In this document: positions 57,415 to 59,467 of the stretch, one piece after another
How the letters are laid out: the number at the start of each line of letters is the position of its first letter
Position numbering within the stretch: the stretch's first letter is position 1
Assembly (NCBI RefSeq): GCF_041296385.1
Contig: NC_091016.1
Span: 14,545,497-14,609,496, forward strand
From: Aphelocoma coerulescens
Taxonomy: Eukaryota > Chordata > Aves > Passeriformes > Corvidae
Direction: 5' to 3'
Length of the DNA stretch: 64,000 bases
Translations under genes and position numbers: made by a program
The notes under the pieces: model-generated
Database searches by the model: none
What the model was told of the DNA's origin: nothing
The model's input: only the letters and a program-made list of their open reading frames with translations

Positions 57415-57534
57415 TGCGGCTGGGGAAATAAACATCTCTGAAACATCTAGCAAGAATCCGTCCGTATATATTTATTTCTTTTTCACGGGACTCCTGGTTT
57501 GATATATGCGTGTTGCAGTATCCCCGCTGCAACA
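57415..57534 (+). repeat. 5' LTR of the provirus, R-U5 only (U3 missing)
   Basis: 120 bp identical to 59348-59467. It begins TGCGGCTGGGG directly after the target duplication and ends in GCTGCAACA. An AATAAA lies at 57427-57432, only 13 bases in, so this segment is R-U5 and the promoter-bearing U3 is absent. Either 157 bp were lost between two TG dinucleotides after insertion, or an incompletely extended cDNA end that happened to start TG was integrated. Without U3 this copy has no LTR promoter of its own upstream of the ORF. Confidence 0.85.
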
Positions 57535-57536
57535 TA

Positions 57537-57554
57537 TGGTGGAGAATGCGGGCA
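57537..57554 (+). other. Primer-binding site for tRNA-Ala (AGC type)
   Basis: TGGTGGAGAATGCGGGCA lies two bases after the 5' LTR. Its reverse complement ends in CCA and reads as the 3' end of vertebrate tRNA-Ala(AGC): T-stem, seven-base acceptor strand ATTCTCC, discriminator A, then CCA. The match to the tRNA comes from memory of the tRNA family. The position and TGG start are exactly as expected for a retroviral primer site, and they confirm the 5' LTR boundary. Confidence 0.8.
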
Positions 57555-57576
57555 GAACGATCCCCGTGACTGATTT

Positions 57577-57585
57577 GTGTGAGTA
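57577..57585 (+). promoter_or_regulatory. Putative leader splice donor
   Basis: GTGAGTA at 57579-57585 matches the vertebrate 5' splice-site core and sits between the primer-binding site and the first ATG, where simple and betaretroviral genomes place their major donor. The exon side is a poor match. A good acceptor-like sequence (pyrimidine run ending CCCCACAG) lies downstream at 58998-59023, after the ORF stop. Splicing from one to the other would skip the whole ORF; use of these sites is not shown. Confidence 0.35.
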
Positions 57586-57644
57586 AACCCTGGAAACTTT
57601 GGATTCCTCTTCTTGGTTTTGTTTTGCTATTGCATATCTGGACT

Positions 57645-58973
57645 ATGGAAGAATCGTGGGAAATGGGGCTCTCTGAGCCACAGAAAAAAATGTATCTAGA
57701 AGTAAAAGGGATCCTTGAACAACAAAACAAAAAAGTATTGGAACCGGGAGATCTTGAACACTTTTTTATCTGGCTTTTCAAAGAGTTCCCCTATATTTCT
57801 CGAGACTTACTTTTTGATATCAAACCTCCTGGATATTCTCAGGAGTGTTTCTGGAACGAGATCTGTGATAAGCTAAGGGATGGACTAGCAATAGAAGCTC
57901 TCCGTGGATCCTTTATAATCAGTGACGCTCTTCAGGAGCATCTGTATGATCCCATTACCCCTAAAGCAGAAGATCATACTTCTCCCGTGGCCGAGACCGC
58001 GTGGCGGCCACCCCAGGAGTGTATGACTGCAGCTGTGCCAGCGGAGGTGCCTGCGCTGGATGTGCCCGGCCCCCTCGGGAGCGCGCGCCTTACTGCGGAC
58101 CCCATCCCTGTCTCGGGGTCCCCGGCTACGCGGCCGCGAGTGAGGGAGCGATGCCGCAGGCGCCATGGGTGCCGTGGGCCACGAGCAGCCAGGAAGCGGA
58201 GGTCAGCGTGGAAGCCCGCTCTGTGCATACGGCTCAGAGAGCCCTATGCAGGGAGAAGCGGCGGTTTCCACAGCGACACGAGAAGCTGTGCAGTGCAGCG
58301 CCGAGCCGAAACGGGGCCGCTCTCAAAGCAGCGTGGAGTTTGCGGAGCGGAGCCGTGCAGAGCCCAGACAGGCGCTGGAGCGGGGCCGTGCAGAGAGCGC
58401 AGAGCGGCCGCGGCGCGGGGGCCTGACCGAGACGTCGGAGTCGGCGAGGCGGCGGCCACGCGGGACCAGCAGCCACGACAGACACGCAAGCACGTGATAG
58501 GAGACGTTCTAGCAACGAAAGTCACAGGAACTGTGAAATGGTACAATGTAAAAAACAACTATGGATTTATAACACGAGATGATACAGGGGAAGATTTATT
58601 CATCCATAGAACTGCCATTAAAAGGAATAACCCTAAAAATTACCTGCAAAGTGTAGGAGATGGGGAAGTTGTTCAATTTGATATAGTGCAAGGAAAGAAG
58701 GGTTTACAAGCAGCGAATGTTACTGGGCCTGGAGGTATTCCCGTCAAAGGCAGCCGTTATGCACAAAATTATAAACAATATCCATTCCAGCAATTTCCCT
58801 ACCCACAGCCTAATTTCCCCTTTTACCCTATACCCAATATGAACCCTTTCCTAAGTTTACCCTATCCCCAGTTTATTCCCAATCCGTTTTTTCATCCATG
58901 GTTTCCCTCACAAACCCCTGCCTTTGCCAATTGTTTCCCCAAAAATCCCTTTCCGATGCCGATGGGGGGATGA
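57645..58973 (+). CDS. Matrix-like/Y-box cold-shock-domain fusion protein of the provirus (442 aa)
   Basis: Intact ORF. I chose the ATG at 57645 because it has A at -3 and G at +4; the frame is open upstream to 57579 but without an ATG. An alternative ATG at 57663 begins MGLS, a possible but non-ideal myristoylation start. Residues 1 to about 115 are helical with spaced aromatic and acidic positions (FFIWLFKEFPY, FWNEICDKL) and resemble a betaretroviral Gag matrix domain; this is a moderate-confidence call. Residue 61-64 is PPGY, a PPxY-type motif. Residues about 116-287 form a GC-rich, Arg-rich linker. Residues 288-373 are a complete cold-shock domain with GTVKWYN, RNP1-like NNYGFI, RNP2-like DLFIH, KRNNP, SVGDGE and NVTGPGG, ending in GSRYA. 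This is unmistakably the Y-box family, and KRNNP plus VKGSRYA lean towards YBX2. Residues 374-442 are rich in Pro, Phe and Tyr. Expected activity is single-stranded RNA or DNA binding; a role in packaging or translation is inference. Confidence 0.85.
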   Translation: MEESWEMGLSEPQKKMYLEVKGILEQQNKKVLEPGDLEHFFIWLFKEFPYISRDLLFDIKPPGYSQECFWNEICDKLRDGLAIEALRGSFIISDALQEHLYDPITPKAEDHTSPVAETAWRPPQECMTAAVPAEVPALDVPGPLGSARLTADPIPVSGSPATRPRVRERCRRRHGCRGPRAARKRRSAWKPALCIRLREPYAGRSGGFHSDTRSCAVQRRAETGPLSKQRGVCGAEPCRAQTGAGAGPCRERRAAAARGPDRDVGVGEAAATRDQQPRQTRKHVIGDVLATKVTGTVKWYNVKNNYGFITRDDTGEDLFIHRTAIKRNNPKNYLQSVGDGEVVQFDIVQGKKGLQAANVTGPGGIPVKGSRYAQNYKQYPFQQFPYPQPNFPFYPIPNMNPFLSLPYPQFIPNPFFHPWFPSQTPAFANCFPKNPFPMPMGG

Positions 58974-59190
58974 AAAGGGGGAGGAAAGAAATTAAACCCT
59001 CTCCTGCCTCAGTTTCCCCACAGGCATGTCCAGAGAGTTCTGTCTCCCTTCTGTCAGCCCTGAGATGTTCCACAGAATTTGTTTGGACATTTAAAGACTC
59101 AGGAGGGTGGCTTGTTTTGTTTTGAAACTGTTCTTGTTATGTTTATCCAATTGTCTTCATTCTCCTTTTATTAAAATAAAACGGGTGAGA
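58974..59190 (+). other. Provirus 3' untranslated stretch with purine tracts
   Basis: This stretch follows the stop codon. It starts with a strong purine run (GAAAAGGGGGAGGAAAGAAA, overlapping the stop), then a pyrimidine-rich acceptor-like sequence, about 170 bp of unrecognised sequence and AAAATAAAACGGGTGAGA directly before the 3' LTR. The last is the positional candidate for the polypurine tract, though it contains pyrimidines. The earlier run is a better purine tract but lies about 200 bp too far from the LTR. No open frame of note is present. Confidence 0.5.
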
Positions 59191-59467
59191 TGTTGGGGTC
59201 CCTCCCCTGCCATGTAGCCCCTGAGGGGGAGGCACGGGGTTTCCCTGCCCCTGCTCAGCCTCGTTCCCCATTGGTTGGTTTGTGTTCCCCTGCGCGGGCA
59301 AAGCAGCTCGGGTCGGACTGTAAGAGTCTCTCAGCAGAGCCCGGCCATGCGGCTGGGGAAATAAACATCTCTGAAACATCTAGCAAGAATCCGTCCGTAT
59401 ATATTTATTTCTTTTTCACGGGACTCCTGGTTTGATATATGCGTGTTGCAGTATCCCCGCTGCAACA
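59191..59467 (+). repeat. 3' LTR of the provirus (U3-R-U5, 277 bp)
   Basis: Begins TGTTGGGGTCCC and ends GCTGCAACA. The U3 (59191 to about 59347) is GC-rich with an inverted CCAAT box (CCATTGG, 59268-59274) and no clear TATA box. The polyadenylation signal AATAAA is at 59360-59365. The last 120 bp repeat the 5' LTR exactly. The U3 start is inferred from the TG terminus and from the geometry of the 5' deletion, since there is no intact U3 copy upstream for comparison. Confidence 0.75.

Follow-up and report, generated by a model that had tools for sequence, protein, structure and literature searches.

A non-autonomous ERVK-like element family of corvids whose single gene joins a matrix-type domain to a Y-box cold-shock domain

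Organization of the element

This study concerns a retroelement in a 64,000-nucleotide stretch of the genome of the jay Aphelocoma coerulescens (NC_091016.1, positions 14,545,497 to 14,609,496 of the forward strand; hereafter the window). The element spans positions 57415-59467, is flanked at both ends by CCCTCT, and has one open reading frame (ORF), whose product joins a segment resembling a retroviral matrix domain (MA) to a complete Y-box cold-shock domain (CSD) (Table 1). An earlier note, made from the sequence alone, had described the element as a long terminal repeat (LTR), a primer-binding site (PBS), a single ORF and a second LTR within a perfect 6-bp target duplication. The duplication and a PBS-like site are indeed seen; however, the 120 bp that had been taken for an LTR are R-U5 only, and the true LTR is 277 bp long. 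As the note had also stated, no capsid, zinc-knuckle nucleocapsid, protease or pol is encoded: the CSD is the sole Pfam domain above cut-off in the ORF, and the gap between the ORF and the 3′ LTR is 217 nt.

Table 1. Features of the window copy (positions in the window; aa, amino acids)
Feature	Position	Strand	Remarks
Left target site duplication, CCCTCT	57409..57414	.	exact match with 59468-59473
5′ LTR, R-U5 alone, U3 missing, first bases TGCGGC	57415..57534	+	120/120 nt identical to 59348-59467
Leader	57535..57644	+	contains a 24-mer with 539 genome occurrences and the splice-donor-like site GTGAGTAA (57579-57586)
PBS-like sequence TGGTGGAGAATGCGGGC	57537..57553	+	two bases past LTR end; variable among copies
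Single ORF, 442 aa	57645..58973	+	open; intact in 9/11 distinct fetched subfamily A loci
Retroviral matrix-like domain, aa 1-104	57645..57956	+	profile match to ERVK gag N-termini; fold match to RSV/MMTV matrix
GC-rich basic linker, aa 105-281	57957..58487	+	pI 11.1; GC 72% over 57981-58487
Y-box CSD, aa 282-375	58488..58769	+	Pfam PF00313; PDB sequence matches
Proline/aromatic-rich tail, aa 376-442	58770..58970	+	19 P, 18 F/Y/W; common to crow proteins
Purine-rich tract	58973..58990	+	200 bp upstream of 3′ LTR; polypurine tract role uncertain
3′ untranslated region	58974..59190	+	95% identity with three subfamily B copies
Complete 3′ LTR, 277 bp, TGTTG...CAACA	59191..59467	+	U3 59191-59347; R-U5 59348-59467; AATAAA at 59360
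Right target site duplication, CCCTCT	59468..59473	.	exact match with left copy

The window copy starts with TGCGGC, 12 bases ahead of AATAAA, and lacks U3, although its duplication is perfect. In contrast, the upstream part of the LTR is present on the 5′ side of all seven other loci of the first search (L002-L008). One further copy, L016, begins at the same TGCGGC base (its position 1266) and has a duplication that agrees at 5 of 6 bases; TGCGGC is likely the start of R in both copies. Such U3-less ends could have arisen if the 5′ end of the RNA was copied in full once the first strand had been transferred between molecules, with the complement of TG supplying the CA end for integrase. The PBS-like position holds TGGTGGAGA-type sequence that differs from copy to copy and that may be tRNA-Ala-like. 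The splice-donor-like sequence between this site and the ORF occurs in both of the subfamilies described below. A search of Rfam gave nothing at gathering score.

Abundance and subfamilies

The element belongs to a family of hundreds of copies. The leader 24-mer has 539 exact sites in the genome and a 25-mer from the ORF tail has 549, the reversed-pattern control giving 0 for each. In DNA searches, the best 40 of 2467 candidates for the 5′ part were all at least 99% identical to the window, and the best 40 of 1510 candidates for the CSD part were about 100% identical. Target duplications, evaluated at 24 loci (L009-L032, of which L010 is the window copy) with the best-fitting pair of ends chosen for each locus, were exact over 6 bp at 19 loci, had one mismatch at one and four or five mismatches at three, and were undelimited at one.

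Two subfamilies can be distinguished. For subfamily A, to which the window copy belongs, 11 distinct loci were fetched, all of them best-scoring DNA matches. Nine of the 11, counting the window copy, have an ORF of at least 442 aa with the same matrix-CSD join; the frame is shorter in L005 (214 aa) and L009 (330 aa). Subfamily B was uncovered with a crow protein (P0010) as query, the best 96 of 37,977 candidates all being full length at 86-92% identity. Counted by match row, 68 of these 96 have no stop codon and 28 have one, and a frame of at least 437 aa is found in 12 of 20 fetched loci.

The further copies with the same join that the earlier note had proposed to look for thus exist, and they bear on the alternative it had raised itself, namely that a processed YBX retrocopy landed just once in an ERV (endogenous retrovirus) unrelated to it. 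A variant of this explanation is a host gene with accidental LTRs. Hundreds of copies, the same join in those examined, the matrix-like N-terminus and the relatives in Corvus all contradict it; nothing was found in its favour, and we regard it as hardly credible.

Leader and tail are not always found together as exact sites. On contigs C1 and C2 an exact tail is paired with 40 of 61 leader sites, and with C3 included the count is at least 56 of 94. Eight leader sites without an exact tail were fetched, and the CSD is retained in seven of them and absent in L070. Five further PBS sites bear the same MA, in fetched stretches that end before the CSD. L071 has a B-type MA and about 25 bases of linker, after which come GC-rich sequence not related to the family and a short piece of the 3′ untranslated region; this locus is a deleted or different internal form.

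Several family sites on contig C3 repeat between about 26.5-29.9 Mb and 33.5-36.9 Mb at an exact offset of 7,055,340 bp, which is a large duplication, real or assembly-made, that inflates the copy counts slightly. There are also two tandem arrays, with ten primer-site copies at 1910-bp spacing (C4:114687678-114704887) and three CSD copies at 1934-bp spacing (C35:8431462-8435805). In both arrays the repeated unit looks like a single LTR together with the internal part.

The N-terminal domain and probable class II affiliation

A profile of the N-terminus matches the N-termini of long ORFs adjoining pol (ERVK gag) in the same genome, two of which were verified as Gag, and an alignment-based fold model matches the matrix proteins of Rous sarcoma virus (RSV) and mouse mammary tumour virus (MMTV). 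Single-sequence methods were less informative: Pfam gave no convincing match for this part of the ORF, the fold had a pLDDT of 57, and a PDB search with that model gave nothing usable. Among 40 candidates in a protein search with residues 1-125, only P0002, from Aphelocoma coerulescens, and P0003 were matches, both of them family members, and there is no host exon among these two relatives. These results uphold the idea that a gag segment, rather than a host exon, was joined to the Y-box domain.

Together with this ERVK-Gag-related N-terminus, the TG...CA ends of the LTR and the 6-bp duplications point to an ERVK-like (class II) family, one that encodes no reverse transcriptase (RT) of its own. 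Measured against a complete Gag, the product has the matrix domain and lacks the capsid and the zinc-knuckle nucleocapsid.

Origin of the cold-shock domain

The CSD matches PF00313 with an E value of 2e-22, and the best PDB sequence matches of the protein are Y-box proteins (E 1e-41). The window CSD is 63-65% identical to YBX1, YBX2 and YBX3, values that do not by themselves settle the parent gene, and in BLAST the window protein scores 155 bits with YBX2 and YBX3 and slightly lower, 149, with YBX1. Seven element proteins that were compared have derived residues in common, for example WY for WF, and T for N after GFI/AFI, as would be expected of a single capture.

A 344-aa relative with the same tail motif, P0014, is more telling. 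It aligns to YBX1 (turtle or guineafowl) over 233 aa at 48%, above YBX2 and YBX3, and the numbered Y-box names among its best 120 of 2133 matches are YBX1. In P0014 the sequence on either side of the CSD is still YBX1-like and the FPFYPIP tail is present as well, so that this protein may represent an intermediate stage of the capture. Mainly because P0014 aligns best to YBX1, we consider that the CSD probably derives from this Y-box gene. Given the exon structure of YBX1, the intronless domain suggests that the capture came via mRNA.

The residues reported for RNA binding by YB-1 are K64, W65, Y72, F74, F85, H87, K118 and E121 (PMC9928419). Seven of the eight are retained in the element, and E121 is replaced by Q. 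The element is like YBX1 in its CSD, and in P0014 also in the N- and C-terminal flanks; it differs in the matrix domain added in front and in the proline/aromatic tail, whose 67 aa include two K/R but not a single D/E and which replaces the basic-acidic repeats at the C-terminus of a Y-box protein.

Selection and mosaic identity

To compare the subfamilies, nine A and ten B ORFs were aligned in 90 pairs; L016 and L029, which have intact B frames missed by the motif filter, and L010, a duplicate of the window copy, were left out. For the CSD, the synonymous divergence (dS) is about 1.0, and the ratio of nonsynonymous to synonymous divergence (dN/dS) is 0.245. The corresponding ratios are 0.235 for MA and 0.354 for the linker, both with dS above 2 and hence near saturation, and 0.337 for the tail. 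The synonymous versus nonsynonymous contrast in the CSD gave a Fisher p of 6e-7 on mean counts, and third codon positions are enriched among the CSD differences of one A-B pair. As read from codon differences, these comparisons show purifying selection on the CSD between the two subfamilies. Ratios within subfamily B are 0.18-0.39, for copies that were selected by protein score.

A question raised by these values is whether the protein matters to the element at all. The ORF could be a passenger, the family being spread by cis signals and a helper alone and the frames being open since the copies are young. Several observations weigh on that side and against a function of the protein in the element: the best 40 matches within subfamily A have 99-100% identity to the window, the stop codons in subfamily B are numerous, and a shared-against-singleton test of selection was flat. 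However, A and B both keep the frame and this low ratio across a synonymous divergence of about 1 in the CSD, and the domain order is common to the proteins of the New Caledonian crow, so that we judge a mere passenger to be quite improbable.

The divergence between the subfamilies is unevenly distributed. In three B copies, nucleotide identity to the window is 91-94% in the leader and falls to 53-54% in MA, 43-44% in the linker and 70% in the CSD, returning to 92-95% in the last half of the tail, 95% in the 3′ untranslated region and 92-96% in the LTR. Other B copies are less similar in the LTR (85% for L013; range 85-95%). Divergent cores inside a shared shell are the pattern that copy-choice between co-packaged RNAs would leave.

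Y-box proteins regulate translation. This property lends some support to the idea that the protein, produced in the germ line or the early embryo, has the host rather than the element's RNA as its target and modulates translation or RNA silencing, in the manner of ERNI, the Gag-type product of ENS-1, in chick development. ENS-1/ERNI is a precedent for a young, multi-copy, nonautonomous avian ERV whose product has a developmental role (PMC10996621, PMC3362752). Yet the cores of the two subfamilies are strongly divergent in MA and CSD, which suits a gene serving the element itself better than a conserved function directed at the host, and a role in the host is in our opinion unlikely.

Search for an autonomous partner

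The earlier note had also suggested an autonomous relative with the same LTR, which was looked for in part and was not found: none of 18 distinct RT loci compared (150 scored, from 9934 candidates) has the family LTR as its own. The LTR, leader and coding pieces of the family were compared with the flanks of L043-L062 (10 loci) and with L033-L042, two loci being shared. Of the 10 flanked RT loci, 8 have LTR pairs that could be delimited; none is the family LTR, and the primer sites differ too. L043/L044 gave no LTR pair, and L051/L052 gave other repeats. The only matches found were at L053/L054 (C3, around 152592218), which was rejected as a partner on the ground that a different ERV is nested there inside a family LTR; this ERV has a 1175-aa open frame around its RT. 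The RT search also returned dozens of matches of near-equal score with a 1168-aa open frame and an LTR of about 470 bp. This group is a very recent ERVK family, and is a candidate helper on activity grounds only.

Crow relatives and the NDP insertion

Proteins of both subfamilies, with the same domain order, are present in the New Caledonian crow (P0003 and P0010 (24 members)). In hooded crows, a 2.25-kb ERVK insertion upstream of NDP, corCorLTRK1b, with an LTR of 296 bp, has been associated with lower NDP expression and with plumage (Weissensteiner et al., PMC7341801). The jay family is of similar size, 2.19-2.26 kb with an LTR of about 270-300 bp.

The four primers of two polymerase chain reactions for the presence of that insertion (PMC7341801) were compared with the window and 32 loci. 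The site of primer P_L_R_2 is in the ORF tail. The window copy (58893) has a single mismatch to it and 31 of the 32 loci have one or two, the exception being L005, which diverges before the site. Primer P_R_F_1 lies in the leader, with at most three mismatches in 22 of the 32 loci and an exact match in the subfamily B loci L013, L024, L031 and L032. The window copy and the majority of the other A copies have a different leader, without a match to this primer within three mismatches; the leader of the crow insertion is, by its primer sequence, nearer to subfamily B. The two flank primers match neither the window nor the loci. The primer orientations agree with a reverse-inserted element, and on the 3′ side a distance of 575 bp is compatible with the product of 659 bp. 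Judged by primers, orientation and sizes, the NDP plumage insertion is apparently a member of the family found in the jay. The main text of the crow paper does not contain the terms "cold shock", "Y-box", "gag" or "ORF" (PMC7341801).

Interpretation and comparison with known systems

We interpret the element as a member of a non-autonomous ERVK-like LTR family of corvids, whose sole gene consists of a Gag matrix-type domain and a retrocopied Y-box CSD, with YBX1 as its likeliest parent, and whose protein, made from the LTR transcript, would coat the element's own RNA for packaging by a helper ERVK. Support is good for the observation and for the existence of a family; we regard the mechanism as moderately likely and the interpretation as a whole as rather probable. 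In the proposed mechanism, the LTR transcript would yield the 442-aa protein, and the CSD and basic linker would coat the element's RNA, substituting for the RNA binding of the missing nucleocapsid in stability, chaperoning and loading. Through its matrix-type domain the complex would reach the Gag of an ERVK acting as helper, which would provide capsid, protease, RT and integrase. The mosaics would then arise by template switching between two RNAs packaged together. MMTV Gag recruits host YB-1 (PMC4486188), and because of this case a helper, a packaging role and RNA binding are all plausible.

A more far-reaching picture can be offered only tentatively. It is possible that the family is a satellite-like lineage in which the RNA-handling half of Gag was replaced by a host Y-box domain, and which has its own RNA packaged in helper ERVK particles, which is old enough to have split into recombining subfamilies in jays and crows, and one insertion of which altered crow plumage and mating barriers.

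If the interpretation is correct, this germline family, which is open in many copies and occurs in two genera of corvids, would show that a host protein can take the place of nucleocapsid in a natural retroelement. An implication of the recruitment of YB-1 by MMTV Gag is that the matrix-CSD fusion is a testable short cut to the same end. A further suggestion is that the element near NDP, whose insertion is linked to hooded/carrion crow plumage, is protein-coding. No description of such an element was found by title and abstract start among open-licence PMC papers.

Finally, we note that nonautonomous ERVs with captured host sequence are a known kind, and that the unusual part here is the RNA-binding cargo. 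The host genes picked up by retroviruses are mostly growth genes. In the Gag-oncogene fusions of acute avian retroviruses, such as Gag-Crk, a defective provirus likewise has captured host sequence fused downstream of the N-terminal part of Gag, and Gag-Crk-type proteins are among the fold matches by TM-score (about 0.6, with E not significant). The jay family differs from these in that its cargo is an RNA-binding domain, has been retained over long evolution of the element, and has multiplied in the germline. ENS-1/ERNI and ENS-3 (Soprano) of the chicken are also young, multi-copy avian ERVs with a nonautonomous variant that has one Gag-type protein (PMC10996621). ERNI, however, has a capsid fold and a known autonomous form that is sister to ERVL, whereas the jay family combines matrix and CSD, makes 6-bp duplications, and is one for which the search described above found no partner.
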